A stretch of DNA of 64,000 bases, from assembly GCF_000661915.1 (NCBI RefSeq), contig NZ_CP007509.1, positions 2,373,501 to 2,437,500 on the forward strand. The letters are read 5' to 3'. Below the pieces are notes generated by a model. It made no database searches, had not been told where the DNA came from, and saw only the letters and a program-made list of their open reading frames with translations. The first letter of the stretch is position 1. Each line of letters opens with the position of its first letter. The position numbers and the translations under genes were made by a program. This DNA comes from Stutzerimonas decontaminans. GTDB taxonomy: Bacteria; Pseudomonadota; Gammaproteobacteria; Pseudomonadales; Pseudomonadaceae. Below are positions 39,486-58,089 of this stretch, piece after piece.

Positions 39486-41069
39486 ATGACAATCTTGCGC
39501 CGAGGTTCCGCCTGGTTACTGTACCTAGCTCTCCTGGTTCCTGTTTCGCTGCTCGCTGCCACGGCCGACCATAGCCAGTTCAAGGCGCTGCAAAGGCCTT
39601 TCGCAAGTGGCGAGGACGTCACGCGCGCCTGCCTGCGCTGCCACACCGAGGCGGCAAAACAGGTTATGGCTACCCGTCACTGGACTTGGGACTACACCAA
39701 TCCGGACACCGGCCAGCGCTTGGGCAAGAAGACCATGCTCAACGGTTTCTGCATAGGCGACCGGTCCAACGAGGCCTTCTGCCAGTCCTGTCACGTCGGC
39801 TATGGCTGGAAAGATGCCAGCTTCGATTTCTCCGATGAGAGCAAGGTCGACTGCCTGGCCTGCCACAACACCGGCAACTATGTGAAGCTCGCCGGTTTGG
39901 CCGGTCACCCGCCGCTGGTGCGCACCGAAACCTCGCCCGGCTCAGGCAAGTTCGCTGAGCCGGTAGACCTGGCGGCAGTGGCGCGCAACATCGGCGTCAC
40001 CTCACGCCGCACCTGTGGCACTTGCCACTACTATGGTGGCGGCGGCGACGGCGTGAAACACGGCGATCTAGACTCTTCGCTGAACGATCCGCCGCGCAGC
40101 CTCGATATACACATGTCCAGCGACGGCCCGGACTTCAGTTGCTCCACCTGTCATGTTGCCGACCAGCACAAGATCGCCGGTAGCCGCATTAGCGTGACTG
40201 CGGCGGATCCGCATGCGCCGATCCTGCGCGGCGAGCGCAGCGCGCGTAACCCGTCCACCTGCCAGTCCTGTCATGGGGAACGTCCGCACAAAGCTTCGGT
40301 AGTGCATGCCAGCCGGCTCAACGACCACACTCGTACCCTGGCCTGCCAGACTTGCCATATTCCGACCTTCGCCCGAGGCGGCGTGCCAACCAAGATGGCC
40401 TGGGACTGGTCCACCGTTGGCAGACTGGACAGCGAGGGCAAACCGTTCTTGACCAGAAACGCCAAGGGCCACGTGATCTACGACAGTCGCAAAGGCGACT
40501 TCGTCCTCGGCGAGGATGTGGTGCCGAACTATGTCTGGTTTGATGGCACCGTCACCTATGTACAGCCGGACACCCGGATCGATCCGAGCAGCCGCGTGCC
40601 GATCAATGTCTTTCACGGCACAGCGGGCGCTGCGAATGCTCGCATCTGGCCGGTCAAGACGTTCCATAGCCGTCAGCCATACGACAGGGTCCACATGACC
40701 TTGCTGGTACCACATACCGCCATCCCGGACGACACTGCCCTCTGGTACAACTTCGACTGGGCCAAAGCGCTGCAGGCCGGCGCAGATGCCACCGGCGCGC
40801 CCTACAGCGGCCAGTACGGCTTCGTCGACACCTCGATGCTGTGGCCGATCACCCACATGGTCGCGCCCAAGGAACAAGCCCTGGACTGCGCCCAGTGTCA
40901 CTCCAGCCAGAGCCGCTTGGCGGCGGTTCCCGGAATCTGGTTGCCGGGCAAGGAACGCAACTCGCTGCTGGACACACTCGGCTTCAGCCTGGCTGGCCTC
41001 GCCCTGCTAGGCGTGCTGGTCCACGGCCTGCTGCGCATCGTCGCGCACCAGCGCAGACGGAGGTACTGA
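39486..41069 (+). CDS. octaheme c-type cytochrome (tetrathionate reductase family, Otr-like)
   Basis: A 527-residue multiheme cytochrome with eight CxxCH heme sites in order: CLRCH, CQSCH, CLACH, CGTCH, CSTCH, CQSCH, CQTCH and CAQCH. Relatives such as Shewanella Otr reduce tetrathionate, nitrite and hydroxylamine in the periplasm. The N-terminal helix (AWLLYLALLVPVSLLAA) and a C-terminal helix (GFSLAGLALLGVLVHGLLRI) can anchor it to the inner membrane. The earlier ATG at 39471 is in frame, but GGAG nine bases before ATG 39486 favours that start. The cytochrome b partner begins one base after the stop, so this is a quinol-linked pair. Confidence 0.92.
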   Translation: MTILRRGSAWLLYLALLVPVSLLAATADHSQFKALQRPFASGEDVTRACLRCHTEAAKQVMATRHWTWDYTNPDTGQRLGKKTMLNGFCIGDRSNEAFCQSCHVGYGWKDASFDFSDESKVDCLACHNTGNYVKLAGLAGHPPLVRTETSPGSGKFAEPVDLAAVARNIGVTSRRTCGTCHYYGGGGDGVKHGDLDSSLNDPPRSLDIHMSSDGPDFSCSTCHVADQHKIAGSRISVTAADPHAPILRGERSARNPSTCQSCHGERPHKASVVHASRLNDHTRTLACQTCHIPTFARGGVPTKMAWDWSTVGRLDSEGKPFLTRNAKGHVIYDSRKGDFVLGEDVVPNYVWFDGTVTYVQPDTRIDPSSRVPINVFHGTAGAANARIWPVKTFHSRQPYDRVHMTLLVPHTAIPDDTALWYNFDWAKALQAGADATGAPYSGQYGFVDTSMLWPITHMVAPKEQALDCAQCHSSQSRLAAVPGIWLPGKERNSLLDTLGFSLAGLALLGVLVHGLLRIVAHQRRRRY

Positions 41070-41070
41070 G

Positions 41071-41667
41071 ATGACCGAACGCCTCTACCTATTCACCCGC
41101 TTCGAACGCTTCTGGCACTGGTCGCAGGCGGCGCTGATCATCACCCTGCTGTTCAGCGGCTTTGCGATTCACGGCAGCCATGCCCTGCTCGATTTCCGCA
41201 CGGCAGTCGAAGTTCATGAAATGGCCGCTTGGCTGCTGATCGCCCTGTGGATTTTCGCCATCTTCTGGCACTTCACCACAGGGCAATGGAAGCAGTACAT
41301 CCCGACCCTGACCAACATCCAGCGGGTGACGCTTTACTATGCCCACGGCATCTTCACCGGCGCCCCGCACCCCTACAAGGTTACCCGCAAGCGCAAGCAC
41401 AACCCGCTGCAGCGCATCGCCTACCTGGGCGTGCTGGTGCTGATCAATCCACTGATCTGGGTGAGCGGCCTGTTCTATCTGTTCTGGGGGCGTCTGGAGG
41501 CTCACGTGCCTGACTGGCTGGGCTTGGAGCAGGTGGCCACAGTGCATACCTTCGCGGCCTTCCTGATGCTGATTTTCCTGATCGTACATGTGTACCTGAC
41601 CACCACCGGGCATACACCGTTGGCGCACATCCGCGCGATGATCACCGGTTGGGAGGGACGCGACTAA
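41071..41667 (+). CDS. cytochrome b561/hydrogenase-type diheme membrane subunit
   Basis: A 198-residue inner-membrane cytochrome b with four helices (HWSQAALIITLLFSGFAIHG and TFAAFLMLIFLIVHVYLTTT begin and end the bundle). Histidines in FERFWHWSQ, EVHEMAAW, FWHFTTG and HTFAAF-VHVYL are the expected heme ligands, as in the b-subunits of NiFe hydrogenases and formate dehydrogenases. It should pass electrons from the quinol pool to the octaheme cytochrome encoded just before it. The coupling (TGA then ATG one base later) supports a two-subunit complex. Confidence 0.93.
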   Translation: MTERLYLFTRFERFWHWSQAALIITLLFSGFAIHGSHALLDFRTAVEVHEMAAWLLIALWIFAIFWHFTTGQWKQYIPTLTNIQRVTLYYAHGIFTGAPHPYKVTRKRKHNPLQRIAYLGVLVLINPLIWVSGLFYLFWGRLEAHVPDWLGLEQVATVHTFAAFLMLIFLIVHVYLTTTGHTPLAHIRAMITGWEGRD

Positions 41668-42769: not shown

Positions 42770-43030
42770 TCAGTTGTGCGCGCCCTCCTCCAGGCGCTTT
42801 TGCAGGTAGCTGACCACCGAATCGATGCTGATCAGCAGCTGATAATCGGCCTCTGGAATGTTCACACCGAGGCGCTGATGCAGCGCAGAGATGTAGCGCA
42901 ACCAATCCATCGAATCGAGGTCAACCTCATCGCGCAGCAGACGGTCGGGGCGTAAGGTTTTCACATCGACCTCCGGCGCGATGTGTTGCAGCGCCTCGAG
43001 TGCGATGTCGCGAATCTGCGCTTCTTCCAT
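42770..43030 (-). CDS. stand-alone acyl carrier protein paralogue
   Basis: An 86-residue acidic protein with the acyl carrier pattern: IRDIALEALQHIAPEVDVKT, then LRDEVDLDSMDWLRYISALH. The serine of DLDSMDW is the expected 4'-phosphopantetheine site (family DSL/DSM). It is not the fatty-acid AcpP: the recognition helix differs and no fab genes are near. It starts 12 bases after the E2 gene and is the last of the acs-E1-E2-acp transcript. It may hold an acyl or lipoyl intermediate for the complex, which is inference. Confidence 0.87.
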   Translation of the reverse strand: MEEAQIRDIALEALQHIAPEVDVKTLRPDRLLRDEVDLDSMDWLRYISALHQRLGVNIPEADYQLLISIDSVVSYLQKRLEEGAHN

Positions 43031-43042
43031 TTCGTTCTCCTG

Positions 43043-44203
43043 TCACAGGCTGTCGGGGCTCTGTAGCAGACGGCCCACCTCGACGAGAAACCGCGCGCCG
43101 TAATGGCCGTCGCTCGCCCTGTGATCGGCTGCCAGGCTCAGTACGACGGTTGGCATCACGCAGAGCGAGCCGGCTTCCACCCATGGGCGCTCGGCGATCC
43201 GCCCAACGCCTACCAGCGCGACCTGCGGCGGATAGATGACACCAAACACGCTGTCGACGCCCTGCTCGCCTAGCTGGGTAACGGTTAGCGTGACGTCACT
43301 CATTTCCGAGCTGCGCAATGACCCACTGCGCGCACGTTGTATCAGGTCGGCTAATCCATCCATCAGTTGCGGCAACGATTTTTCCGCAACGTCATGCAGC
43401 GCAGGTGCAACTAGGCCACCCTGACGCAAGGCGATGGCCACACCAAGGTGGATGCCCTCGGCTGGCCGAAAGCCGTCGTCACGCCAGTAGCCATTGAGCA
43501 ATGGATACTGGCGCAACGCCAGCGCCACAGCCTTGAGTATCACCGCACCGGCGAGCAAGCGCTGCTCTGGTGGCCGCTCGGCGTTATAGGCCTGGAGCCA
43601 GCTGCTGGCGGCGCCGAATGCAACGGTTTCGCTCAGGTAGTAATGCGGAATCTCGCGCTTGGATCGGCTCATGGCGGCGGCGATCGCCTGGCGCATCGCG
43701 GCGTTGCGATCTACCGGTGCAGCTTTCGGCGAAGCGGCTTCCACATCTTCCAGCGTAATGGTGCCGTGAGGGCCACTGGCGCTGAGCGCCTCCGGGTCGA
43801 TACCCAGTTCAGCGGCTCGTTTGCGGGCGGCAGGGGATATACGAGCTCGCGTTGCGCCTTGCTGAACAGCGGTAGCGGCTGCCGGTTGTGGCTCCCCTTG
43901 TGGTACAGCGGCTTTCGGGCCTTGTACCAGCACCGCAGCCTGCGCTAATGCAGCTTCGCGGGATTCGCCGGGTTCAAGCAGCGTCGCGATGGCGGTGCCG
44001 ACCGGGATCTTGCAGCCTGGCTCGATCAGTAGTTGCAGCACTTCGCCGGTTTGCCAGCATTCAACGTCCACCGCAGCCTTGGCGGTATCGACCACGGCGA
44101 TTACCTCGCCACGTTCGATTCGCGTCCCGGGCTTCACCTTCCATTGCAGCAGCGTGCCTTCATCCATGTCTGCGCCCAGTGATGGCAGTTTGAAAACGAT
44201 CAT
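43043..44203 (-). CDS. dihydrolipoamide acyltransferase (E2) of a 2-oxoacid dehydrogenase complex
   Basis: A 386-residue E2 with one lipoyl domain (lysine in VVDTAKAAVDVECW near residue 43), an E1/E3-binding domain (RARISPAARKRAAELGIDPE) and the catalytic acyltransferase domain ending in LSLAADHRASDGHYGARFLV, where His and Asp of the DHRxxDG motif are intact. A GTG two codons earlier is in frame, but GAGG lies before ATG 44203. It follows the E1 beta gene by 27 bases. No E3 gene is nearby, so E3 must be shared with other complexes. Confidence 0.93.
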   Translation of the reverse strand: MIVFKLPSLGADMDEGTLLQWKVKPGTRIERGEVIAVVDTAKAAVDVECWQTGEVLQLLIEPGCKIPVGTAIATLLEPGESREAALAQAAVLVQGPKAAVPQGEPQPAAATAVQQGATRARISPAARKRAAELGIDPEALSASGPHGTITLEDVEAASPKAAPVDRNAAMRQAIAAAMSRSKREIPHYYLSETVAFGAASSWLQAYNAERPPEQRLLAGAVILKAVALALRQYPLLNGYWRDDGFRPAEGIHLGVAIALRQGGLVAPALHDVAEKSLPQLMDGLADLIQRARSGSLRSSEMSDVTLTVTQLGEQGVDSVFGVIYPPQVALVGVGRIAERPWVEAGSLCVMPTVVLSLAADHRASDGHYGARFLVEVGRLLQSPDSL

Positions 44204-44230
44204 GCACACCTCATAGCCGAGATCGGCGCG

Positions 44231-45205
44231 CTAATGCAACAGCTGGCGGGCCGCCGCGATGATGGACGAGACCTGTGGCAGGGCCGCATCTTCCAGATGC
44301 TTGGCGTACGGAATCGGCACCTCGGCGCTGCACACGCGTGCCGGTGGCGCGTCTAGTTCGAAGAAACCCTGCTCGATAATGCGCGCGATGATCTCCGCCG
44401 ACAGGCTGCCGCTGCGCCAACCTTCGTCGACCACCAGAACGCGCCGCGTCTTGCGGACCGACTCGAGGATGGTCGCGTCGTCCAGCGGGCGCAGCACACG
44501 AAGGTCGATGACTTCCGCCGCGATGCCCTCTTTTGCCAGCTCTTCGGCCGCCTGCAGCGCCTTGGGCAAAGTGCCGCCGTAAGCGATCAAGGTCAGGTCC
44601 CTGCCCTGCCGTCGCACACGAGCCGAGCGAATGTCCACCGTTGGAGGTGCCTGCAGCTCATCCTCCAGGTTGTACAGCTGGGCATGCTCGAAGATCAGCA
44701 CGGGGTCCGGGGCCTGCAGCGCGGGCCAAAGCATGCCGCGGGCATCCTCGACCGTAGCCGGGGCAAGGATAATCAGGCCGGGAATATGGGCGAACCAGCC
44801 TTCCAGACTATGGGAATGCTGCGCTGCCAGTTGCCGCCCGGCCCCGGTGGCCATGCGCAACACCAGCGGAACGGAAAACTGCCCGCCGGACATGTGCCGA
44901 AGCGTCGCGGCGGTGTTGATCAGCGGATCGAGGGCCAGCAGGGCGAAGTTCACCGTCATGACCTCGACGATCGGCCGCATACCACCGAGTGCCGCGCCAA
45001 TACCGGCACCGACGAACGCCAGTTCGGACAACGGCGTGTCGCGGATGCGCGCCTCGCCAAATTCGGCCAGCAGGCCTTTGGACACGGCATAGGTGCCGCC
45101 GTAGCGACCAACATCCTCGCCCATCAGAAAGACCCTTTCATCGCGCTGCAGGGCTTCACGCAGCGCTTCCTGCAGGGCCTCGCGGTAGCTGATCCGGGTA
45201 GTCAT
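44231..45205 (-). CDS. 2-oxoacid dehydrogenase E1 component, beta subunit
   Basis: A 324-residue E1 beta (transketolase-like) starting [20 protein letters not shown]. Features are [20 protein letters not shown], a middle [20 protein letters not shown] with the conserved histidine, and the C-terminal domain [21 protein letters not shown] much longer open frame upstream overlaps E1 alpha; ATG at 45205 overlaps the E1 alpha stop as ATGA. With E1 alpha it decarboxylates a 2-oxoacid (pyruvate or a related acid) using thiamine diphosphate and hands the acyl group to E2. Confidence 0.94.
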
Positions 45206-46193
45206 GGCTGCACCTGCGGTGTGTATACGTCGCTGCACAACTGCTCGATGGGTTCGAGCGTGCCGGCCTCCGCGTAGGCTACGGCGTCCTCTACTTCCTG
45301 CCTCACGGCAGCCTCTATCGCCAGAAAGCCCGGCTCGTCCAACAGGCCCTGCGCCTTCAGTCGGGCGCTGTAGGTGTGGATCGGTCCGCGCTGCTTCCAC
45401 TGCTCCACTTCGGCCTTGTCGCGATACAGCTCCGGGTCGAACATCGAATGGGCGCGGAAGCGGTAGGTCTGAAACTCCAGGAAATACGGGCCCTGACCGC
45501 TGCGCACGTGCGCCACCGCCGCTCGGGTGGCGTCGTGCACTGCAACCACATCCATGCCGTCGACGGCCGCGGCGGTCACCCGATACGCCGCAGCCTTGGC
45601 GCATAGATCGGGCTGCGATTGCGAGCGGGCCAGCGCAGTGCCCATTGCATAAAGGTTGTTCTCGCAGCAAAACAGCACCGGCAACTGCCACAGCGCCGCC
45701 AGGTTCATTGATTCGTGGAATGCGCCTTCGGCCATCGCCCCCTCGCCGAAGAAACAGGCACTGATACGTGAACCCTTCTGCATCTGCTCGGCCAGCGCCA
45801 GACCGACCGCCAGTGGCAGGCCACCGCCGACAATGGCGTTCCCACCGAAGAAGCGCGTGCAAGCGTCGAACAGGTGCATGGAGCCGCCGCGCCCGTGCGA
45901 GCAGCCCTGCTGGCGACCATACATCTCGGCCATGATCGCCTTCATCGGCACGCCCTGGATCAGCGCGTGGCCATGTTCACGGTAGGTGGCTATAACGGCA
46001 TCGTCCGCGGCCAGCGCATGCAGGCTCCCGACCGCCACGGCCTCCTCGCCGATATAAAGGTGCAGGAAACCGCGAATCTTGCCCTCGCCATACAGCTCGG
46101 CGGCGCGCTCTTCCATGAGCCGAATGCGCAACATGTCGCGCAGCAGGCCCAGCGCCAGCTCCGACGGATAGATCACGGCAGACGGCTTGCTCA

Positions 46194-46194
<1 letters not shown>
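45202..46194 (-). CDS. 2-oxoacid dehydrogenase E1 component, alpha subunit
   Basis: A 330-residue E1 alpha of the acetoin/pyruvate dehydrogenase type. The thiamine-diphosphate site is seen in [20 protein letters not shown] through [15 protein letters not shown], and the phosphorylation-loop-like region in [40 protein letters not shown] and [11 protein letters not shown] match the family. A GTG one codon upstream is in frame; ATG 46194 shares a base with the acetate-CoA ligase stop (TGATG). Whether the substrate is pyruvate or acetoin cannot be told from sequence. Confidence 0.94.
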
Positions 46195-47957
<1,763 letters not shown>

Positions 47958-48056
47958 CCCCCAGGAAACTGTGGAGTAAACGCTGCCGTGCGCAGACGAT
48001 GCATTGAAGCGTCACCGCAACTGTTAAGAAGGCTAGAACCAAATCGGGGCAGTGGA

Positions 48057-48070
48057 TTGATTACGATCAA
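48057..48070. promoter_or_regulatory. perfect FNR/Anr box within a 24-bp palindrome
   Basis: TTGAT-TACG-ATCAA matches the FNR/Anr consensus (TTGAT-N4-ATCAA) at all ten conserved bases. The symmetry extends to ten-base arms (48052-48061 with 48066-48075). It lies in the divergent region between the acetate-CoA ligase and kinase genes, so it can serve both arms. On the minus strand, TAGCCT at 48035-48030 is at a spacing that fits FNR class II activation, but is a poor -10 match. Confidence 0.8.
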
Positions 48071-48236
48071 TCCACGTAAAGCTATAGCGCCTCATGGTCT
48101 TCAGGCCGAGAGGAACCCGACATGGTGGCGGGCAACGCTGCCGAGCGCAGCTAGACTCGCAGATGGCAGCGCATAGCGAGGTGTCGGCTGCGCTGGATAG
48201 GACTGACAAGCCGGCGCGAACAACTGTGAGGGATGG

Positions 48237-49304
48237 ATGAGCGGTCAGCAGGAAGTCATCGAGTTTCTGTCCCGTGCCGAAAGCTACGGCGCTCTGGGCG
48301 ACACGGTCGAGCGCATCGAAACCCATGGCTCGCTTGTCTTTCTGTGTGGCGAGCGGGTCTACAAGCTCAAGCGCGAGATTGCCTATGCGTCGCTGGACTT
48401 CCTGACGCTGCAAAAGCGCGAGCGCGCCTGCCACGCCGAGTTGCTGCTGAACCGACGCACTGCCCCGGGCATCTATCTCGCGGCGCGCTCGATCACGCGG
48501 GACAGTGCTGGTCGGCTGGCCTTCGATGGCAAGGGCGAGGTGCTGGATTGGGTAGTGGTGATGCGTCGGTTTCCGCAGTCCGCCCTGTTCGAGCGCATGG
48601 CCTTGGCAGGCGAGCTGACGCCCTCGCTGATGCAAGCCCTGGGCGTGGAAGTCGCGCGCTTCCATGCCGGAGCGGAGCGGATGCCCGCCTTTGGTGGCAG
48701 CACCGGCATACATCGGTCAATCGAGAGCAATCACCATGAGCTGTGCCGCCACCGCTGGCTGCTCGATGCGGATGCGGTGCAGGCGCTGTGTCACGACCAA
48801 CTGACCCTGCTCGATCAGCTCTCGGCAGAACTCGATCGGCGTCGCCACGAGGGTTACGTTCGGCGCTGTCATGGCGACATGCGACTGGCGAACATCTGCC
48901 TGTTCGAAGGGCGACCTACCCTGTTCGACGGCATCGAGTTCAGCGACGAGATCGCCTGCATAGACATCCTGCACGACCTCGCTTTCGTGTTGATGGATCT
49001 TCAGCACCACCAACTGGCCGACCTGGCTCCGCTCGTGTTGCGCGCCTATCTGGATGAGAGTGGCGAAGCGGAAGATTGCCGGCCGTTACCGCTGTTCCTA
49101 TCGGTCCGCGCAGCGACTCGCTGCTTTACCCTAGCCAGCAGCGCTCAGCGCCAGACCACGCCCGAGGCTGCCGAAGCCAAGGCCGCACAAGCGCGCATGC
49201 TGTTGCAGCAGTCCCGCATCTATCTGCTTGATCACCAGGCGCTGGGCCTGGGTTATCCGCAGGTGACGTCCATTCCTTCCGGTTCGCCCAGGAGACATCC
49301 ATGA
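48237..49304 (+). CDS. APH-fold kinase-like protein, unknown substrate
   Basis: A 355-residue protein of the aminoglycoside-phosphotransferase fold. The N-lobe shows LVFLCGERVYKLKREIAY, with the lysine expected to hold ATP. The catalytic loop is RCHGDMRLANICLFEGRPTL and the metal motif is LFDGIEFSDEIACIDILHDL. It resembles the N-terminal half of a family annotated as aminoglycoside phosphotransferase fused to a P-loop ATPase, but that second domain is absent. Its stop overlaps the PRPP synthetase start (ATGA), so a small-molecule substrate, perhaps linked to ribose or nucleotide metabolism, is a fair guess. Resistance is not implied. Confidence 0.83.
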   Translation: MSGQQEVIEFLSRAESYGALGDTVERIETHGSLVFLCGERVYKLKREIAYASLDFLTLQKRERACHAELLLNRRTAPGIYLAARSITRDSAGRLAFDGKGEVLDWVVVMRRFPQSALFERMALAGELTPSLMQALGVEVARFHAGAERMPAFGGSTGIHRSIESNHHELCRHRWLLDADAVQALCHDQLTLLDQLSAELDRRRHEGYVRRCHGDMRLANICLFEGRPTLFDGIEFSDEIACIDILHDLAFVLMDLQHHQLADLAPLVLRAYLDESGEAEDCRPLPLFLSVRAATRCFTLASSAQRQTTPEAAEAKAAQARMLLQQSRIYLLDHQALGLGYPQVTSIPSGSPRRHP

Positions 49305-50254
49305 ACACCCGCCCTCCTCTGTTGTTCGCACTGCATGGCACCCAGGATTATGCTGCCCGCGTCGCCCGGCATATGGGGCTCGAGCTGGCTGAGCTCGAAG
49401 AGCGCGCCTTCGAGGACGGCGAGCATAAGAGCCGCGCCCTGACACCGGTGGAAAGCCGTAACGTCGTAGTTTTCCACTCGCTATATGGTGACGACGAGCG
49501 CAGCGTGAACGACAAGCTCTGTCGCCTGCTGTTCTTCTGCGGCGCGCTCAAGGATGCGGGCGCTCGCCAGGTTCAGGTGGTCGCGCCCTATCTCTGCTAT
49601 GCGCGCAAGGAGCGGCGCACCCAGTTTCAGGACCCGATCATCACCCGCTATGTTGCGGCACTGTTCGAAGCCTGCCGGGTGGATCAGTTGACCACCATCG
49701 AGGTGCACAACCTGGCCGCATTCGACAATGCGTTTCGTATCACCACCCGGCATATCGAGAGCGCTGAGCTGTTTGCCGCGCATTTTGCTCGCCTGCCCGA
49801 AGACGCAGAACTCGTGGCAGTCTCTCCCGACGCCGGCGGTGCCAAGCGCGCGGAATCCTTTCGCCGCGCACTGGAGCGGCATACCGGACGCGCCGTCAGC
49901 AGCGCTTACATGGAGAAGTACCGCAGCAACGACATAGTGACCGGGGCAATGCTGGTGGGAGACGTACGCGAACGGATCGCAATCATCGTGGATGACCTGA
50001 TCAGCACTGGCGGCACGCTGCTGCGTGCCGGCGAGGCCTGTCGCGAGGCAGGCGCGCGGCAAGTACATGCGGCCGCAGCGCACGGCTTGTTCACTGGCGG
50101 CCCTGAAATACTGGAAAGCCCGATATTCGACCAGTTGGTGATCACCGATACAGTGCCGCCATTCCGCCTTGCCCCAGACCTGGTTAGCGGGCGCCTGACG
50201 ATTCTGGATTCCAGCTCCATGGTTGCAGCTACGCTCGGCGCCCAGTACCGCTGA
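49301..50254 (+). CDS. divergent ribose-phosphate diphosphokinase (PRPP synthetase) paralogue
   Basis: A 317-residue member of the PRPP synthetase family, which makes 5-phosphoribosyl-1-diphosphate from ribose 5-phosphate and ATP. Visible are VVAPYLCYARKERRTQF (ATP/ribose phosphate region), LVAVSPDAGGAKRAESFRRA and the PRPP loop IAIIVDDLISTGGTLLRAGE. It differs from housekeeping Prs in the flexible loop and in the C-terminal allosteric region, so feedback control by ADP may be lost. GGAG lies six bases before ATG 49301, which overlaps the kinase stop. It is followed by the fnr-type gene after 87 bases. Confidence 0.89.
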   Translation: MNTRPPLLFALHGTQDYAARVARHMGLELAELEERAFEDGEHKSRALTPVESRNVVVFHSLYGDDERSVNDKLCRLLFFCGALKDAGARQVQVVAPYLCYARKERRTQFQDPIITRYVAALFEACRVDQLTTIEVHNLAAFDNAFRITTRHIESAELFAAHFARLPEDAELVAVSPDAGGAKRAESFRRALERHTGRAVSSAYMEKYRSNDIVTGAMLVGDVRERIAIIVDDLISTGGTLLRAGEACREAGARQVHAAAAHGLFTGGPEILESPIFDQLVITDTVPPFRLAPDLVSGRLTILDSSSMVAATLGAQYR

Positions 50255-50341
50255 GCATGGCTGGCCTTCACGCCTGTCTGCATTTCTTGGCTACAGTCAT
50301 GCAAAAGAGCCAAAAAATACCAGCACGATCAGGAGATCGTC

Positions 50342-51091
50342 ATGGAAGCAAGCAAGGATGGCTGTGAGGCCGCCCCGCTGATTTGCCGTGAATGTGCACT
50401 ACGTGGCGTCTGCCTGCCGGCGACGCTGTATGACCCCGATCTGAGTCGATTTGAGAACATCATCCGCCACAACCGCCGTGTGGCCCGCCACAAGCATCTC
50501 AGGCGCGCCAGCGAGCCGGCCAATCAAATTTATGCCCTGCGTAGCGGCGCCCTGAAAACCTACATCGTCAGCAACGACGGCCGCGAACTGGTAACCGGAT
50601 TCGTCCTTCCCGGCGAGCTCGTCGCTCTGGATGCCTTCGCTGGTGGCCGATCGGCCAGCCATGTCATGGCGCTGGAGCCCTCGCTGGTGTGTGGCATCCC
50701 TGTTGCGGAGCTGGAGGAGCTGCTGACGGGCAGCGCTCGCCTACGTAAGCGCCTGTTCAAATTCATCAGTCACGAACTGCAGATCGAGCAGGCCCATCTT
50801 CGACATAACCGCGAAAGCGCCGGGCAACGGTTCCTCGCCTTCTTTCTTGATCTCTCGGCTCGCCATGCGCGGCGCGGGCTATCTCCAACCCGCTTCACCC
50901 TACCGATGACGCGCGCGGAGATCGGTAATTATCTGGGCCTGACCACCGAAACCGTCAGCCGCCTGTTCACGCGCTATCGCCAGCTTGGACTGATCGACAC
51001 TACAGGGCGGGATGTGCAGCTGCTGGACGTACGCTCGCTGGCAATAGCCCGCGATGCGTCGGCGCAGCGAATCTCCTGCTTGGCTGGATGA
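50342..51091 (+). CDS. Fnr-type oxygen-sensing regulator (Crp/Fnr family)
   Basis: A 249-residue Crp/Fnr regulator. Cysteines at 15, 18 and 24 (CRECALRGVC) and 117 (SLVCGIP) reproduce the spacing of the E. coli Fnr cluster ligands 20/23/29/122 exactly, so it should hold an oxygen-labile [4Fe-4S] cluster. The cyclic-nucleotide-binding-like barrel is followed by a dimer helix and the helix-turn-helix TRAEIGNYLGLTTETVSRLF. Its Glu-x-x-Ser-Arg (ETVSR) is the pattern that reads TTGAT-N4-ATCAA. Two perfect boxes of that type flank this gene block, and one near-box lies just after it. It is probably a second Anr specific for this region. Confidence 0.93.
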   Translation: MEASKDGCEAAPLICRECALRGVCLPATLYDPDLSRFENIIRHNRRVARHKHLRRASEPANQIYALRSGALKTYIVSNDGRELVTGFVLPGELVALDAFAGGRSASHVMALEPSLVCGIPVAELEELLTGSARLRKRLFKFISHELQIEQAHLRHNRESAGQRFLAFFLDLSARHARRGLSPTRFTLPMTRAEIGNYLGLTTETVSRLFTRYRQLGLIDTTGRDVQLLDVRSLAIARDASAQRISCLAG

Positions 51092-51107
51092 CGCGTTGGG
51101 CGAACGG

Positions 51108-51121
51108 TTGACGCCTGTCAA
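51108..51121. promoter_or_regulatory. symmetric FNR-like site before the lon-like gene
   Basis: TTGAC-GCCT-GTCAA is a perfect 5-4-5 palindrome that differs from the FNR/Anr consensus by one base per half. It lies 16 bases after the fnr stop and 101 bases before the lon-like start, so it could be a weak or modified site for the same regulator. Confidence 0.4.
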
Positions 51122-51222
51122 GGCCGAGCCTGCCCATGCGCAAATAATCGATGCACCTGCCGGCCTCGCCGCCGAGCAAAGGCAACGCTGCATGAATGCG
51201 GTAACAGACCTGGAGATTCGAT

Positions 51223-53634
51223 TTGCAGCCCTACGAATTATCCGCAGAACGGCTCTACCAGATCTGCGATGACAGCCTGCTTGATTTCGAGACCACCTCC
51301 GACCTGCCCGATCTCGACGACATTCTCGGACAGGAGCGTGCGCTGGGTGCCTTGCATCTTGGCGTCGGCATGCGTCACGAGGGTTACAACCTCTATGTGA
51401 TGGGCTCGCCTGGCCTAGGCAAGCACGCCATCGTGCGCAATCTGCTGCAACAGCGTGCCACCAAGGCCGCGCAGGCGCAGGACTGGTGCTACATCAACAA
51501 TTTCCGCGCGCCACATAAACCGCTTGTGCTTTGTGTGCCGGCCGGCTTTGGTAACACGCTGCAAACCGATATGCGCCGGCTAGTCCGTACGCTGCTCAGC
51601 GCGCTGCCGGCCGCCTTCGACAGCGACGATTATCGCAACGCCGTGCAGACCATCAAGGATGAATTCAAGGCGCGCGAGGAGGCGCTTTTGGGCTCGCTGA
51701 GCGAGCAGGCGCGCCAGGCGGACATCATGCTGATGAGCACGCCCAGCGGCTATACGCTGGCACCGCTGCTCAAGAGCGGAGAAGTGATGGGCCCAGTCGA
51801 GTACGAGCAGCTTTCCGCCGAGGAAAAACAGCGCATCGAGCGGAGTAGCGAAACGCTGCGACTGGCCCTGCGCCAGGGCCTGCAGCTGGTCGCCAGCTGG
51901 CATCGAGAGCACGACAAGCGTATCGAGCAGGTCAATCAGGAAACCACCCGCGCCACCGTCGACATCCATCTGGCAGAGCTGCAGTCGTCCTATCAGCAGT
52001 TGCCCGGAGTGATGGCGTTCCTCGCCGAGGTCAGGCTGGACATAATCGAGCGAGGCGAGGACCACTTCGCCAACATCGAACCGACCAAGGTGCTTGGCAG
52101 CCAACGCCTCACACCGTTCAACCGCTACTTCGTCAACGTGCTGGTGGACAACTCCGCCAGTTCCGGCGCGCCGCTGGTCTACGAGGACCACCCCAGCTAC
52201 CAGAATCTCGTCGGTCGTATCGAGCATCTAGCGCAGATGGGAACGCTGCTCACTGACTTCACGCTAATCAAGAGTGGCGCGCTGCATCGAGCCAACGGCG
52301 GCTATCTGGTGCTCGACGCACGCAAGCTGCTGAGCCAACCATTCGCCTGGGAGGCGCTCAAAAGGGCCCTGCAGGCTCGCGAGCTGCGTTTGCAGTCGCT
52401 GGAGCAGACACTCAGCATGGCCAGCACGATCTCTCTTGAGCCGGATCCGATTCCGCTGGACGTCAAGGTGGTGCTGGTGGGCGATCGCCGCCTCTATTAC
52501 CTGCTGAACCAATACGATCCGGAGTTCTCTTTGCTGTTCAAGGTGGAGGCCGACTTTGCCGAGGACTTCGAACGCAGCCCGCAGAACACCTTGCTATACG
52601 CCCGCCTGCTAGCCACGTTGCAGCGGCGAGAGAAGCTCAAGCCACTGGAGCGAGGCGCTGTGGCGCGGCTGATCGAGCATGCGTCAAGACGCGTGGAGGA
52701 TGCCGAACGGCTGTCGCTGCACCTGGCGAGCATGCTCGACATGTTGCGCGAGTCGGATTTCTGGGCAGGCGAACGCGGTAGCGAGCGGGTCACGCGAGAA
52801 GATGTCGAGCGCGCCCTGGGCGAATCCCTGCATCGCGCCGACCAGATACGTGAGCGCATGCACGAGGCCGTGCTGCGTAATCTGCGCCTGATCGAAACCA
52901 GCGGCTCCAGCGTGGGGCAAATCAACGGGCTGGCGGTGGTGCAGCTGGGTAATCATGCCTTCGGCCACCCGGTACGGATCACCGCCACGGCTCGACTGGG
53001 TGACGGTAAGGTCGTTGATATCGAGCGCGAAGTAGAGCTGGGTGGTGCGCTGCACTCCAAAGGCGTGATGATTCTGTCCGCCTACCTGGCCAACCGTTTT
53101 GCGCGTGAGGCCCCCTTGTCACTCGCGGCCAGCCTAGTCTTCGAGCAATCCTATGGCCCGGTCGAGGGCGACAGCGCTTCGGCCGCCGAGCTCTGCGTGC
53201 TGCAATCGGCCCTCGCCGGGCTGCCCCTACGTCAGGATCTGGCTATCACCGGCTCGGTCAACCAACACGGCAACATCCAGGTGATCGGCGGCGTCAACGA
53301 GAAGATCGAAGGCTTCTTCGACATTTGCCGCGCACGCGGGCTGAGCGGCACTCAAGGGGTGATCGTTCCGGAGGGCAACGTCAAGCATCTGATGCTGCGT
53401 CAGGACCTGCTCAACGCCGTGCGGGACGGGCAGTTCCATGTCTATGCGGTAAGCGAAGTCGACCAGGCGATGGAGCTGTTGACCGGGCTCCCAGCCGGCG
53501 CAGCCGATGAGACTGGCGGTTATCCACCAGGCAGCGTCAACGCCGCAGTGAAGCAACGCCTGGACGAGCTCAGCTACCTGCGGCGTCGTTACATTCAATC
53601 AGAAGGCACTGGTCGTGATCATTCGGACCAGTGA
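51223..53634 (+). CDS. Lon-like ATP-dependent protease (LonB/YcbZ-type)
   Basis: An 803-residue AAA+ protease of the Lon-like type related to Pseudomonas AsrA (PA0779). The N-terminal Lon-specific segment is followed by a P-loop in YNLYVMGSPGLGKHAIVRNL, where the usual Ser/Thr after Gly-Lys is His. A long coiled-coil insert runs about 160-270. Walker B is diffuse. The S16 protease domain ends the protein, with catalytic Ser in VEGDSASAAELCVLQSAL and Lys in IGGVNEKIEGFF. The start is TTG at 51223: GGAG seven bases upstream, and family sequence (LSAERLYQICDD) begins directly after it. The stop overlaps the next gene by 20 bases. Confidence 0.9.
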   Translation: MQPYELSAERLYQICDDSLLDFETTSDLPDLDDILGQERALGALHLGVGMRHEGYNLYVMGSPGLGKHAIVRNLLQQRATKAAQAQDWCYINNFRAPHKPLVLCVPAGFGNTLQTDMRRLVRTLLSALPAAFDSDDYRNAVQTIKDEFKAREEALLGSLSEQARQADIMLMSTPSGYTLAPLLKSGEVMGPVEYEQLSAEEKQRIERSSETLRLALRQGLQLVASWHREHDKRIEQVNQETTRATVDIHLAELQSSYQQLPGVMAFLAEVRLDIIERGEDHFANIEPTKVLGSQRLTPFNRYFVNVLVDNSASSGAPLVYEDHPSYQNLVGRIEHLAQMGTLLTDFTLIKSGALHRANGGYLVLDARKLLSQPFAWEALKRALQARELRLQSLEQTLSMASTISLEPDPIPLDVKVVLVGDRRLYYLLNQYDPEFSLLFKVEADFAEDFERSPQNTLLYARLLATLQRREKLKPLERGAVARLIEHASRRVEDAERLSLHLASMLDMLRESDFWAGERGSERVTREDVERALGESLHRADQIRERMHEAVLRNLRLIETSGSSVGQINGLAVVQLGNHAFGHPVRITATARLGDGKVVDIEREVELGGALHSKGVMILSAYLANRFAREAPLSLAASLVFEQSYGPVEGDSASAAELCVLQSALAGLPLRQDLAITGSVNQHGNIQVIGGVNEKIEGFFDICRARGLSGTQGVIVPEGNVKHLMLRQDLLNAVRDGQFHVYAVSEVDQAMELLTGLPAGAADETGGYPPGSVNAAVKQRLDELSYLRRRYIQSEGTGRDHSDQ

Positions 53635-54316
53635 AACCGAGGTTCGGCGCCGGGTGTTGCTGGCGCTAGAACCCGCTGGAATCAACCCGAACTCGTTGCA
53701 GATCGCTATACAACTGTCCCGCGACTTGCGCGCAGAACTGACCAGCCTGCTACTGGAGGATGTGGCGCTGCTGCGTGCCGCCGCCCTACCCTTCGCCCGT
53801 GAAATTAATCGCAGCGGCGTCGAACGTGTGCTGGACCCGACGACGCTCGAGCGGGACCTGCGGGTGCGTGAAAGCCGATTACGGGAGGAGCTGGCGCGAC
53901 GGCTCGAGCCCAGCGGCATCGTCTGGTCTTTGCGACGTCTGCGGGGGGCTGGGCTGGAAATGCTCCTGAGCGAGATTGGGCAGCGCGATGTCATGGTGTT
54001 CGGGCGCGCGCAGTGCTCGCCATGGAACACGCAATCGCCGGCCCAGCATGGCGTATTGCTTTATCGGGAATCGTCAGCATTGCAATCGGCAGGTGCTGCG
54101 CTGAAATCGCTCGACCAGGACGGGCACCTGCCTGGGCTGGCCTGGGAACCAATGCGCTGGACCACGGCGGAACAGTCGCTGCCTTTGCTGCTGCGCCGTC
54201 AACCGCGGCTGGTCTTGCTGGCTGGCGCGGTGAGCGACTGGCCCGACGCCGAACTTCGGCAGCTTACCGGACGCCTGGACTGCCCTATCCTGCTGGCTCC
54301 GTCAGTCGAGCGCTGA
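53615..54316 (+). CDS. universal-stress-like protein, unknown function
   Basis: A 233-residue cytoplasmic protein. The N-terminal third resembles the Usp/KdpD-type alpha/beta domain (VRRRVLLALEPAGINPNSLQ, then RDLRAELTSLLLEDVALLRA), while the ATP-binding G-loop is not recognisable. The rest is Arg/Leu-rich with a second half-fold ending CPILLAPSVER, as in a degenerate tandem Usp. The start is GTG at 53615, with GAAGG nine bases upstream, inside the lon-like 3' end, so translation is coupled. It belongs to the oxygen-responsive block by position. I am not certain of the family. Confidence 0.66.
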   Translation: MIIRTSETEVRRRVLLALEPAGINPNSLQIAIQLSRDLRAELTSLLLEDVALLRAAALPFAREINRSGVERVLDPTTLERDLRVRESRLREELARRLEPSGIVWSLRRLRGAGLEMLLSEIGQRDVMVFGRAQCSPWNTQSPAQHGVLLYRESSALQSAGAALKSLDQDGHLPGLAWEPMRWTTAEQSLPLLLRRQPRLVLLAGAVSDWPDAELRQLTGRLDCPILLAPSVER

Positions 54317-54335
54317 GCCAGCCGGGTCAGCTGGG

Positions 54336-55949
54336 TCAGCCTGGCAGCGGCGGTTCGCGGTCCTGCGCATCCGGCACTTCGATCATGGTCGCCTCGGTCA
54401 GCAGCAGCACGCTGGCAATCGAGACGGCATTTTCCAGGGCAATCCGTACCACCTTGGTGGGGTCGATGATCCCGGCGGCGTACATGTCCACGTATTGGTT
54501 TGCGGCGGCATCGAAACCGACGCTGCCCTGCTCGGCCAACAGCCGAGCGACCACGACGCCGTCGTCGACCGCTGAGTTGTCGGCGATGGTGCGTACCGGC
54601 GCTTCCAATGCGCGCCGCAGGATCTGTAGTCCGGTCCGCTCGTCGCCCTCGGCACTGGCTTCCTCAGTGGCTATGGCTGCTACGGCACGCAGCAGAGCCA
54701 GGCCGCCACCCGGCACGATACCTTCGGACATGGCCGCTTTGGTGGCGGCAATTGCGTCATCCAGCGCATCCTTGCGGGCTTTCATCTCCGATTCGGTCGG
54801 CGCACCGACGCGAATGACTGCCACCCCGCCCGATAGTTTGGCCAGGCGTTCCTGCAGCTTTTCGCGGTCATAGTCGCTGGCGCTCTTCTCGATCTGGGTG
54901 CGAATCTGCTGCATGCGCGCGTCAATCGCGGCACGACTGCCTGCGCCACCGATCAGCGTCGTATGCTCGCGGTCCACCACCACACGCTGCGCATGGCCGA
55001 GCTGATCAAGCCCAACCTGCTCCAAGGCGATCCCGACATCGGCCGATACCAATTGCGCTCCAGTAAGCACCGCGATGTCCTGCAGCATATCCTTGCGCCT
55101 GTCGCCGAAGCCTGGCGCCTTTACTGCTACTACCCGCAGCACGCCGCGAATGTGGTTTACGATCAGCGTGGCAAGCGCCTCACCCTCGATATCTTCGGCA
55201 ATCATCAGCAGCGGTCGACCGCTTTTCGCAATGGTCTCCAGCAGCGGAATCAGATCCTTGAGCAACCCGACCTTCTGCTCGCATAAAAGTACGAAGGCGT
55301 CCTCCAGCACTGCCTCCATTTTCTCGCTATCAGTGATGAAATACGGCGAAACGTAGCCACGGTCGAACTGCATCCCCTCAACGACGTCGAGCACGGTTTC
55401 GGTGGTTTTGGATTCCTCGACAGTGATGACGCCTTCGTCCCCGACGCGCTCCATGGCATCAGCCACCAGTTCTCCGGTCGCAGGGTCGTTGTGTGCGGAG
55501 ATGGCGGCGATCTGCGCTTTTTCCTTGCGCGTTTTCACTGCACGGGATTGCTTGTGCAGCGTTTCGACGGTAACGCGCAGACCTCGGTCGAGCCCCCGTT
55601 TGATATCGATGGCGCTGGCGCCAGCCACGACATTGCGGATGCCTTCGGTCAGGATGGCGTGAGCCAGAACCGTCGCCGTGCTGGTGCCGTCACCGACTGC
55701 GTCGCCGGTCCGCTCGGCGGCCTGGCGCAACATTTGCGCACCCAGGTTCTCCTCGGGGTCTTCCAACTTGATCTGTTTGGCGATCGTCACGCCGTCATTG
55801 CATACCTTGGGCGCACCATAGGCGCTCTGAATCAGCACGGATTTCGACTTGGGACCGAGGGTGATGCGGATTGCCTCGGCGAGTTGATTGGCGCCCTGCA
55901 GCACTTTCTCGCGCGCAGCGCTACGGAACAGCAGTTTCGTGTGGCTCAT
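54336..55949 (-). CDS. GroEL paralogue without GGM tail
   Basis: A 537-residue group I chaperonin subunit. It keeps the ATP motif [15 protein letters not shown], the apical-domain segment [20 protein letters not shown] and the hydrolysis aspartate (second Asp of [12 protein letters not shown]). It differs from housekeeping GroEL in the apical domain and at the C-terminus, which ends [11 protein letters not shown] and lacks the Gly-Gly-Met repeats. No groES is adjacent. ATG 55949 is chosen because AGGAGG lies nine bases upstream and family sequence starts there. It reads toward the lon/Usp genes and has a perfect FNR box 58 bases before the start. Confidence 0.93.
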
Positions 55950-56006
55950 GAAACGCATCCTCCTGTGCAATGACCAGCAGCTTTGTTCAGCACGGAGGCG
56001 TTGTGT

Positions 56007-56020
56007 TTGATCGGAATCAA
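56007..56020. promoter_or_regulatory. perfect FNR/Anr box before the groEL paralogue
   Basis: TTGAT-CGGA-ATCAA matches all ten conserved bases. It is 58 bases from the chaperonin start (minus strand) and 92 bases from the copper chaperone start (plus strand), so it could serve one or both. Flanks are not symmetric. Confidence 0.78.
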
Positions 56021-56111
56021 CGTCCATGCTGCAGTCGTGCACTGAAACGTAGCGCGTCGCACCAAGCGGCGTAAGATGACGCCATCTTTCACTTGGAATC
56101 GGAGTTTTTAC

Positions 56112-56618
56112 ATGCTGCTTCGCTTACTGGCCGCAGGTGCCATCACCGCCCTTTGCATGCCTGCGATCGCGCAGGAACACCACCACGACCATCAAGCGCC
56201 TGTGGAAGCAGTTGCGACTGAACTCGCTGTCAGCCAGGCCTGGTCGCGCGCAATGCCGCCAAGCGCGCCCACCGGTGCGGTCTATTTCGTTCTGGAGAAT
56301 CGCGGTGATCAACCGCAACGGCTAGTTGGGGCACAGACGCCACGGGCCGTGAAGACCGAACTGCACACCCATGTGCATCAGGGCGACATGATGAAGATGC
56401 AGCAGATCGAGTCGGTCGACGTGCCCGCTTCGGGCAAGGTTGAGTTCAAGCCGGGCGGAAACCACGTCATGCTGTTCGGACTCAAGCAGCCGCTGGTCGC
56501 TGGCGAGAGCTTTCCGCTGACGCTGCAGTTCGAGAGTGGCGCCGAGGTCACCACCGAAGTAAGTATCGAAGTTGATGCCCCCGCTGCTAGCGGCGCGACG
56601 CAGGGCCATCATCACTGA
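56112..56618 (+). CDS. periplasmic copper chaperone PCu(A)C-type
   Basis: A 168-residue exported protein with signal peptide ([20 protein letters not shown]). The mature domain is DUF461/PCuAC: the copper motif is visible as [20 protein letters not shown] and [11 protein letters not shown], giving His and Met ligands in the expected order. Histidine clusters near the start (EHHHDH) and end (GHHH) may add metal sites. Relatives deliver Cu(I) to the CuA or CuB centres of heme-copper oxidases, including cbb3. ATG 56112 is chosen because GGAG lies seven bases upstream. The FNR box before it could tie it to oxidase biogenesis at low oxygen. Confidence 0.9.
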
Positions 56619-56660: not shown

Positions 56661-58019
56661 TCAGATTGCCGCGGGCGTACGCATGGTGACGAACTCCTCG
56701 GCCGCTGTCGGGTGGATGCCCATGGTTTCGTCGAACACCTGTTTGGTCGCACCCGCCTTCAGTGCCACGGCCAGCCCCTGCATGATCTCACCGGCGTCCG
56801 GCCCAGCCATGTGGCAGCCCAGTACGCGGTCGGTTTCGGCGTCCACTACCAGCTTCATCAGGCTCCGCTCGAGGCTGTCCGTCATGGTCAGCTTCATCGG
56901 CCGGAAGCGGCTTTCGAAAATGGTGACCTTGTAGCCCTTTTCGCGGGCTTGTTCTTCGGTGAGGCCGACTGTCGCCATGTTCGGCAGACTGAACACTGCC
57001 GTCGGGATGGTCGCGTAATCCACCTTGCGGTATTGCTCTGGCTTGAACAGCCGTCGCGCAACCGCCATGCCTTCGGCCAATGCCACTGGCGTCAGCTGGA
57101 TACGACCGATCACGTCACCGATCGCCAGAATCGACGATACCGAAGTGCGGTATTCATCATCGACTGCGATGTATCCGCGAGCGTCCAGCGCCACGCCTGC
57201 TTGTTCCAGACCCAGGTTGTCCAGCATCGGACGGCGCCCGGTCGCGTAGAAGATGCAGTCCGCTTCGAGCGTGCGGCCATCTTCCAGCGTGGCCAGCAGG
57301 CTGCCATCGGCCTGCTTGTCGATATGCACGATGTCGGCGTTGAACTGCAGGTCCACGCCCTTCTTGATCATTTCATCCTTCAGGTGATCGCGTAGCGCCC
57401 CATCGAAGCCGCGCAGGAACAATTCGCCACGATAGAGCAGCCTGGTATCCGCACCGCAGCCATGGAAGATCGATGCGAATTCAACTGCGATGTAGCCGCC
57501 ACCGACGACCAGCACGCGTCGCGGCAGGGATTCGAGGTAGAACGCTTCGTTGGAGGTAATCGCATGCTCGCGACCGACAATTTCCGGAACGTGCGGCCAG
57601 CCGCCGGTCGCAATCAGAATATGCTCGGCACTGTACCGTTTGCCTTCAACCTCGACGGTATGCGCGTCCACCAGACGAGCGTGTGCCTGCAGCAGGGTCA
57701 CGCCGCTGTCCACCAGAATGCTCCGATAGATGCCGTTGAGCCGCTGGATCTCACGATCCTTGTTGGCAATCAGGGCTTTCCAGTCGAAGGTAGCGCCGTC
57801 GATGGTCCAGCCATAACCCTGCGCCTGGCCGATGTCCTCGGCGTAGTGCGCGCCGTAGACCAGCAGCTTCTTCGGTACGCAGCCTACGTTCACGCAAGTG
57901 CCGCCCAGGTAGCGGCTTTCGGCAACCGCTACCCGGGCACCGAAACCCGCAGCGAACCGCGCCGCACGAACGCCACCTGAACCCGCGCCGATGACGAAAA
58001 GATCGAAGTCGTAAGCCAT
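56661..58019 (-). CDS. gor: glutathione-disulfide reductase
   Basis: A 452-residue flavoprotein that reduces glutathione disulfide with NADPH in the cytoplasm. FAD site [20 protein letters not shown], the redox-active pair in [20 protein letters not shown], the NADPH site [20 protein letters not shown] and the C-terminal His-Glu in [13 protein letters not shown] are all present. The Lys-Lys after the second cysteine separates it from lipoamide dehydrogenases. ATG 58019 follows AAGGAG by ten bases; the longer open frame is spurious. It is a single gene on this strand. Confidence 0.96.
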
Positions 58020-58089
58020 GTAATGTTGTCTCCTTCTGTAGCGACAGCATAACCCACGCATCCGCTCTGGTTCACCGAAGGAGTGCCCC

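Follow-up and report, generated by a model that had tools for sequence, protein, structure and literature searches.

A candidate accessory island for low-oxygen survival with predicted FNR boxes in Stutzerimonas decontaminans

Genes of the region

The window analysed here, a 64-kb stretch of DNA from Stutzerimonas decontaminans, carries two divergent gene arms and several stress-related genes between positions 42770 and 56020. On the minus strand, an AMP-forming acetate-CoA ligase gene (ACS; 46194..47957; over the NF003313 cut-off) is followed by genes for pyruvate dehydrogenase (PDH) E1 alpha (45202..46194; PF00676, over the TIGR03182 cut-off) and E1 beta (44231..45205; PF02779/PF02780, over the NF006667 cut-off), a dihydrolipoamide acyltransferase, E2, with one lipoyl domain and an E3-binding domain (43043..44209; PF00198, PF00364, and PF02817), and an acyl carrier protein (ACP; 42770..43030; PF00550). 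The solved structures closest to E1 alpha are those of PDH E1 alpha, and E2 has both the lipoyl lysine of DTAK and the HRASDG motif; E1 alpha, E1 beta, and the lipoyl and catalytic motifs of E2 together are those of an E1-alpha/beta type PDH complex. No lipoamide dehydrogenase (E3) is encoded among the 12 genes of the region, and E2 retains its E3-binding domain. The LDSMD motif of the ACP, which holds the phosphopantetheine serine, is kept in all 16 aligned sequences, the window's included.

The opposite arm, on the plus strand, comprises genes for an APH-fold small-molecule kinase (48237..49304; PF01636) and a PRPP synthetase (PRS; 49301..50254; over the TIGR01251 cut-off). The PRS has the sequence expected of a PRPP synthetase, retaining the PRPP-binding loop (DDLISTGGT) and the K-x-R of the catalytic loop. 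For the kinase, a model predicted with a pLDDT of 90.0 placed 5-methylthioribose kinases at the top of the Foldseek list (TM ~0.45-0.49); assigning a substrate from the fold was rejected, as choline and antibiotic kinases score no differently from these top matches, whose TM is under 0.5.

Further along the plus strand lie genes for an Fnr (50342..51091), a LonB/LonC-like protease (51223..53634; PF13654, PF20436, PF20437, and PF05362) with TTC1975/endopeptidase La as the closest solved structure (4fwd; E 1.8e-99), and a putative divergent tandem universal stress protein (Usp; 53615..54316). The initial assignment of the last as Usp-like agrees with its predicted model, which matches tandem Usps in Foldseek (3ab8; E 1.7e-8, TM ~0.4-0.5) and has the Usp fold, although the profile search returned no Pfam match; a family search returned nine proteins including itself, three of them with PF00582. 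A chance open frame was rejected because the protein has homologues that are 80, 73, and 57% identical to it and because its model is that of a tandem Usp. The second GroEL gene (groEL2; 54336..55949, minus strand; over the TIGR02348 cut-off) most likely starts at 55949 (MSHTK...), which was preferred to a start at 56042. It is followed by a PCu(A)C copper chaperone gene, pcuAC (56112..56618, plus strand; PF04314), which probably starts at 56112, and by Gor (56661-58145), outside the island.

The preliminary description of twelve contiguous and coupled genes is accurate: all 12 were found where it had placed them, and the overlaps between APH and PRS, ACS and E1 alpha, E1 alpha and E1 beta, and Lon and Usp are evident in the coordinates. 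Its broader statement that the genes duplicate housekeeping activities holds for the three products compared with their paralogues, namely GroEL2 (52% identical to the genome's other GroEL), the Fnr (40% identical to Anr), and the PRS, which at 29% identity to the genome's other PRS is indeed divergent. The region is fully syntenic in Stutzerimonas sp. S1 (L002). Foreign base composition was considered and dropped, since G+C content (0.62-0.65 across the island vs 0.58-0.63 outside) is uninformative.

Predicted FNR boxes and a separate Fnr

Perfect FNR boxes of the form TTGAT-N4-ATCAA lie at 48057..48070 (TTGATTACGATCAA), in the gap that separates the divergent arms (99 bp from ACS and 166 bp from the APH kinase gene), and at 56007..56020 (TTGATCGGAATCAA), 57 bp upstream of groEL2 and 91 bp upstream of pcuAC. 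The latter is intergenic because GroEL2 most likely starts at 55949. A symmetric variant, one letter off in each half-site, lies between the Fnr and Lon genes (51108..51121; TTGACGCCTGTCAA). All three, as first reported, were found, and these predicted sites upstream of genes are kept in a relative: they align in Stutzerimonas sp. S1 with the half-sites kept, save for one letter in each at 51108, and the spacers changed, the 48057 box being aligned with a perfect box and the 51108 variant with the perfect box TTGATCCTCATCAA. The 56007 box is conserved both there and in genome G080.

Across the whole 4.83 Mb genome there are eight perfect boxes, as opposed to one match to a reversed control pattern, and two of the eight are those at 48057 and 56007. 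The probability of at least two of eight boxes falling in any pre-set 40 kb is ~0.002, a value to be read with the region having been picked after the fact. Other perfect boxes of the genome adjoin a NirQ/NorQ-family gene, a NorC-like cytochrome gene, and an Hsp20 gene. This Hsp20 gene, with its own box, lies near C1:2281052; the 64-kb window itself has no Hsp20 match, and in Stutzerimonas sp. S1 an Hsp20 gene lies within the island.

The copper chaperone, which the preliminary description had set at the edge of the group, is present, but it is best regarded as a resident neighbour and not as part of the core, because pcuAC adjoins Gor in 12/12 same-genus genomes examined and has an upstream box only where APH-PRS is present. 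Specifically, the single genome of the 12 with APH-PRS is the only one with a perfect box upstream of pcuAC, and none of the 11 same-genus genomes without PRS has one within 500 bp upstream, which led us to reject the 56007 box as an old copper-chaperone site.

The Fnr has the sequence features of a [4Fe-4S]-sensing FNR-type regulator: three N-terminal cysteines in a C-x2-C-x5-C arrangement (CRECALRGVC), a fourth (VCGIP) aligned with 5cvr, and an E-x2-S-R recognition helix (ETVSR). The residue after the second cysteine is Ala, vs Ser in Anr. In a phylogenetic tree the protein is separate from Anr and belongs to a clade with 17 rows and a support of 100/99, and members of this clade are mostly near PRS. 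The extra Fnr mostly lies close to genes possibly under its control. The Fnr proteins of seven PRS loci (L021, L024, L025, L058, L063, L065, and L070) fall outside the clade.

Linkage of the two arms in other genomes

The neighbourhood comparison that the preliminary description had proposed revealed conserved linkage, contrary to the lack of co-occurrence that it had named as refuting. Among 119 Pseudomonadaceae genomes, PRS (E <= 1e-60) was found in 14 and E1 alpha (E <= 1e-130) in 14, with both in 10, a co-occurrence with P ~ 8e-9 (5e-8 without the genome under study). In nine of these 10 the two genes share a contig and are no more than 25 kb apart, and in G017 they are on separate contigs. 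We also surveyed 80 PRS loci with flanks of up to 10 kb, shorter on some contigs. These were picked by PRS similarity and include many close relatives (two records, G080/L003 and G020/L006, belong to both sets), and the counts are conditional on PRS and non-independent. Near PRS we found APH in 49 loci, phosphoribosyltransferase in 46, alpha/beta hydrolase in 30, Hsp20 in 23, Usp and nicotinate phosphoribosyltransferase (NAPRT) in 22 each, Fnr in 20, ACS in 19, and GroEL and E1 alpha in 15 each; Lon (5/80) and the window's Usp family (1/80) were rare. The most widespread part of the island is the PRPP synthetase with its APH kinase.

The neighbours of APH-PRS elsewhere hint at a role in NAD upkeep. 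In three loci (L007, L010, and L013) a NadE gene ends ~18 bases before APH-PRS, with perfect boxes upstream; on a Methylocella plasmid NadE directly precedes PRS; and on an Azospirillum plasmid NAPRT adjoins PRS, together with Hsp20, Usps, and a Crp/Fnr gene. Neither NAPRT nor NadE of the type seen in these loci was found in the 64-kb window. The genome's one NAPRT lies at C1:1172841, and its only match to the NadE of the other loci is weak and partial (26%, E 9e-6). In a Tn-seq study of the anoxic survival of Burkholderia cenocepacia H111, the reported hits include nicotinate and adenine phosphoribosyltransferase (PMC9104464).

A low-oxygen reading and its alternatives

Based on the data presented above, the region is probably an accessory genomic island that serves survival at low oxygen and is subject to FNR-type regulation, with the look of a portable kit for oxygen shortage. 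When oxygen becomes scarce, Anr, the local Fnr, or both would bind the inter-arm box and the box by groEL2, and the local Fnr may change the oxygen level at which the response sets in. At the acetyl-CoA node, the ACS-PDH-ACP arm would process pyruvate and acetate, with E3 for the local PDH presumably borrowed from elsewhere. The APH-PRS arm would provide a source of PRPP separate from the housekeeping enzyme, and this PRPP would probably serve NAD(P) maintenance via nicotinate phosphoribosyltransferase and NAD synthetase. Protein protection and clearance may fall to GroEL2, the Lon-like protease, and the Usp. The low-oxygen programme proposed in the preliminary description is in keeping with the linkage, the box enrichment, the boxes kept in Stutzerimonas sp. 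S1, and the Fnr clade near PRS; it fits less well with relatives whose arms are box-free and with the rare linkage of Lon and Usp. The NAD genes absent here and the seven Fnr proteins outside the clade were also counted against it.

The strongest competing explanation, which we consider doubtful, is that the metabolic core (ACS-PDH-ACP plus APH-PRS) acts as a general unit for nutrient or stress adaptation that is only sometimes FNR-controlled, with low oxygen as one trigger of several. It would account for G033 and G044, where the two arms lie side by side with NAPRT and CapA-like genes, and where the 20 kb examined lack both perfect boxes (0/10 of each genome's) and matches to Fnr, Usp, or Hsp20, as well as for the 34/80 PRS loci that have no perfect box. 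Against it, the other 46 loci have at least one, and the 80 together have 103 perfect boxes vs 0.6 expected (the enrichment is for perfect boxes; imperfect ones were counted); moreover, Hsp20, Usp, and Fnr genes recur near PRS. The share of a genome's perfect boxes found within 20-40 kb around PRS varies (G115, 7/16; G086, 6/16; G020, 4/17; G100, 4/18; G070, 3/11; G080 and G056, 1/9 each). G056 retains APH-PRS and E1 alpha/beta but just a fragment of ACS; neither E2 nor ACP was detected, and the one box counted there falls outside.

A more specific proposal sees the island as an NAD-maintenance circuit that pays for itself during anoxia: the second PRPP synthetase would feed nicotinate salvage, PRS would free AMP and phosphoribosyltransferases PPi, and the ligase would remake ATP from both by working backwards on acetyl-CoA that the local PDH and carrier protein provide. 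The reactions of these families are established, and ACS and APH-PRS flank one box here and are linked in other genomes. However, the direction of the ligase is unreadable from sequence, its ordinary role is acetate scavenging, and a literature search on reverse ligase operation found nothing; we regard the circuit as improbable. Finally, a chance series of stress and metabolic genes that act independently, each box serving a single gene, would suit the rarity of Lon and Usp linkage and the resident status of PCu(A)C, but is largely refuted by the PRS/E1 alpha linkage and by the full synteny and conserved boxes in Stutzerimonas sp. S1, and is the least credible of these readings.

Comparison with known systems

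A literature search found nothing on this gene set as such and partial parallels at most. The preliminary description had pointed to partly similar stress clusters in beta-proteobacteria, and the described relative is the lxa locus of B. cenocepacia (BCAM0275-BCAM0323), reported as 50 genes with six USPs and an alpha-crystallin that are involved in anoxic persistence (PMC6127331). Our comparison relied on this published description and on matches to the BCAM0308 family. Like lxa, the island links genes for stress and for metabolism that are connected with oxygen limitation. Unlike lxa, with several Usps and Hsp20, the window encodes a single divergent Usp and lacks Hsp20 as well as any BCAM0308-family match at E 1e-3; by tblastn, a family member lies near PRS in 7/80 loci, and that of L058, the one of the seven tested, reaches the NCBI lxa_BCAM0308 cut-off.

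By gene content, the PRS loci also seem analogous to the mycobacterial DosR regulon, described as having a core of Usp, alpha-crystallin, and a YfiA-like factor, with class II RNR and nicotinate phosphoribosyltransferase at its periphery (PMC4428469). All five recur as PRS neighbours, as does a nitroreductase-like family that is DosR-like but below the NCBI cut-offs; when traced through control genomes, none of the matching controls was a mycobacterium. Most of these neighbours are absent from the window, FNR boxes and Fnr genes stand here in place of DosRST, and PRPP synthetase and a PDH-ACP operon are not named in the passages describing the regulon (PMC4428469).

For single components, Pseudomonas putida has the extra FNR proteins PP_3233 and PP_3287, reported to be less reactive with O2 than ANR (PMC4505428). 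They are similar to the local Fnr in being a second Fnr beside Anr with a four-cysteine sensor, although both were left out of our tree. The groEL of Pseudomonas extremaustralis has a predicted Anr box that was described for this species alone out of five compared (PMC6588701); groEL2 is similar to it in having a predicted box nearby. Across these comparisons, one recurring part, the second PRPP synthetase with its kinase, ties together scattered low-oxygen loci (lxa, FNR-linked Usp genes, and DosR-like sets), and APH-PRS thereby gains a testable role, NAD upkeep once respiration stops.

Gene content and recurrence of the island

All twelve genes of the island (approximately 42770-56618) were located as the preliminary description had them, contiguous and with typical domain content. 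The genes for the acyl carrier protein (ACP), the PDH subunits E2, E1 beta and E1 alpha, and the acetate-CoA ligase (ACS) lie on the minus strand and are transcribed away from a divergent promoter region; those for the APH-fold kinase, divergent PRPP synthetase (PRS), Fnr, Lon-like protease and Usp-like protein lie on the plus strand, and groEL2 (minus strand) and pcuAC (plus strand) share a second divergent region. The GroEL start is most likely at 55949, which would make both perfect FNR boxes (TTGAT-N4-ATCAA, at 48057 and 56007) intergenic. In the carrier protein (42770-43030), LDSMD surrounds the attachment serine in 16/16 aligned sequences and the remainder is variable, a constancy that suggests a dedicated partner, possibly E2. 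The Usp-like protein had no Pfam match, and a search of 5.8 billion sequences, in which the best 7995 word-sharing candidates were scored, returned nine proteins at E <= 1e-3, itself included; its predicted model, built on a 9-row alignment (mean pLDDT 74.7), has its matches among tandem universal stress proteins. Immediately to the left of the island (39471-41667) are genes for a multihaem cytochrome c (PF11783) and then a cytochrome b-like membrane protein, a pair also found in Stutzerimonas sp. S1.

When 84,980 species genomes were scanned with PRS, 87 relatives were obtained, from which 80 loci were kept. Neighbouring families were counted by tblastn (E 1e-8, 40% coverage) within flanks of at most 10 kb, several contigs being shorter, and since 31 of the 80 loci are from Pseudomonas or Stutzerimonas, these counts are not independent: APH 49, phosphoribosyltransferase 46, alpha/beta hydrolase 30, Hsp20 23, Usp 22, nicotinate phosphoribosyltransferase (NAPRT) 22, Fnr 20, ACS 19, GroEL 15, E1 alpha 15, E1 beta 14, PolX 14, E2 12, CapA-like 12, hibernation-factor-like 10, ACP 8, Lon 5, class II RNR 5 and PCu(A)C 3. 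The window's own Usp family appeared at one locus.

Conserved co-occurrence was borne out among 119 Pseudomonadaceae genomes drawn regardless of PRS, where PRS (E <= 1e-60) and E1 alpha (E <= 1e-130) were each present in 14 and together in 10 (hypergeometric P = 8e-9, or 5e-8 without the genome under study, uncorrected for phylogeny). The two genes lay within 25 kb on one contig in nine of these ten. Within the genus, PRS was found in 2/13 genomes (own included) and E1 alpha in 1/13, and the island is therefore accessory. In Burkholderia savannae, a plasmid classified as conjugative has acsA-pdhA-E1b-E2-ACP alongside Hsp20 and NamZ-like genes, and PRS is absent from the displayed stretch around them. 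ACS-PDH genes also lie close to a PRS of island type in two proteobacterial MAGs and a Cupriavidus (L035, L048, L074), and a contig labelled as a Klebsiella pneumoniae MAG carries such a PRS, unexpectedly and possibly through a binning error (L077).

One proposed member of the module did not hold up, the copper chaperone, given that pcuAC adjoins Gor in 12/12 same-genus genomes examined. A perfect box upstream of pcuAC is present in G080, which has APH-PRS, and in none of the 11 other same-genus genomes, one of which carries a site with two mismatches in a comparable position. Most likely, this box arrived with the island and the copper chaperone did not.

FNR boxes and the local Fnr

The perfect boxes reported in the island are two of eight in the whole 4.83 Mb genome, versus one for a reversed control. 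The others are by a NirQ/NorQ-family gene, by a NorC-like cytochrome gene, approximately 70 bp upstream of an Hsp20 gene, by an OsmC-like/amidohydrolase pair, by a PqqD-like gene, and downstream of the end of an acyl-CoA dehydrogenase gene. The probability of two of eight sites falling inside a pre-set 40 kb is approximately 0.002, for a region that was picked after the fact. Stronger evidence comes from Stutzerimonas sp. S1, whose gene order is the same except for an added Hsp20: all three box sites align, the two perfect sites having identical half-sites and different spacers, and the symmetric variant at 51108 (TTGACGCCTGTCAA) corresponding to a perfect box. The Hsp20 gene of that island (8247-8789 of its locus) lies ahead of the kinase; the Hsp20 of the window's genome is 140 kb from the island, with its own perfect FNR box and just 44% identity.

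The view of the island as oxygen-responsive stands in part. Across the 80 PRS loci (1.41 Mb), 103 perfect boxes were observed versus 0.6 expected from shuffles, but these fall in 46 loci, with 34 having none. Around PRS (40 kb in G115, 30 kb in G086, 20 kb in the remaining genomes), boxes as a fraction of all those in the genome numbered 7/16 in G115, 6/16 in G086, 4/17 in G020, 4/18 in G100, 3/11 in G070, 1/9 in G080 and G056, and 0/10 in G033 and G044 (G080 and G020 duplicate the records of loci L003 and L006). G033 and G044 retain ACP-E2-E1b-E1a-ACS divergent from APH-PRS, with NAPRT and a CapA-like gene, and have no perfect box in the 20 kb examined around PRS; thus, FNR linkage of the module is common, not universal. 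G056 retains APH-PRS, NAPRT, CapA-like, E1 alpha and E1 beta genes and an ACS fragment, with E2 and ACP undetected at the PRS locus. The three box-poor genomes (loci L099-L101) belong to one genus, and in G056 the ACS arm is decaying.

In the local Fnr, both the cysteines of the cluster and the recognition helix ETVSR are retained. In a 38-row tree that carried a long-branch warning, and from which near-identical sequences were dropped (a duplicate of the window's sequence remains in one row), it falls in a 17-row clade (support 100/99) separate from the Anr of the same genomes. Fnr genes near PRS at seven loci (L021, L024, L025, L058, L063, L065, L070) lie outside this clade, which means that PRS is accompanied by Fnr proteins of more than one lineage. 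A second Fnr of the local kind (48-53% identity) was found in five of nine chosen genomes, within 15 kb of PRS in four and elsewhere in G100; in this search it was absent from G033 and G080, both with PRS. The residue following the second cysteine is Ala in the local Fnr and Ser in Anr. Because other FNR proteins react differently with oxygen when this position is changed (PMC4505428), a shifted oxygen threshold is plausible.

PRPP synthetase, kinase and a probable NAD link

The most useful new point is a PRPP/NAD branch with a kinase that lacks an assigned function. Longer relatives of this APH kinase are fused to an AAA_33 domain (PF13671). PRS, at 29% identity to the genome's other PRS gene, is probably active, since it retains the PRPP loop and catalytic K-x-R. 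Its partners elsewhere include NAPRT (22 of 80 loci) and, at many loci, other phosphoribosyltransferases. At three Pseudomonas loci (L007, L010, L013; about 6900-8920), a NadE gene preceded by perfect boxes lies a short way upstream of APH-PRS; NadE immediately precedes PRS on a Methylocella plasmid, and NAPRT adjoins it on an Azospirillum plasmid. An NAD synthetase gene is likewise present at L113, the locus of the second Fnr in G100. Together, NAPRT and NadE make up the Preiss-Handler route to NAD. Neither NAPRT nor NadE is in the island of this genome, where NAPRT is located elsewhere and the PRS-associated NadE type gives a weak partial match, and for this reason PRPP could also serve other phosphoribosyltransferases in this organism. 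Two phosphoribosyltransferases, one for nicotinate and one for adenine, are among the anoxic-survival determinants of B. cenocepacia H111 (PMC9104464), and the ribose-phosphate pyrophosphokinase bll3116 of Bradyrhizobium, listed with the microoxia-induced products (PMC6515984), is a candidate parallel to PRS.

Comparison with known low-oxygen systems

A literature search, with most subscription journals outside its scope, found no publication describing this set of genes. Among described systems, the lxa locus (PMC6127331) comes closest. What connects the two is the BCAM0308 family, an lxa feature, which occurs at 7/80 PRS loci but is absent from the window, which also lacks the several Usps with Hsp20 of lxa; given these two differences, we do not call the island an lxa locus, although it probably works like one. 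In gene content, the wider PRS-locus family is similar to the DosR regulon as well, as PMC4428469 summarises it. The island is real, conserved and often FNR-linked, and is probably a low-oxygen system of an already known type.
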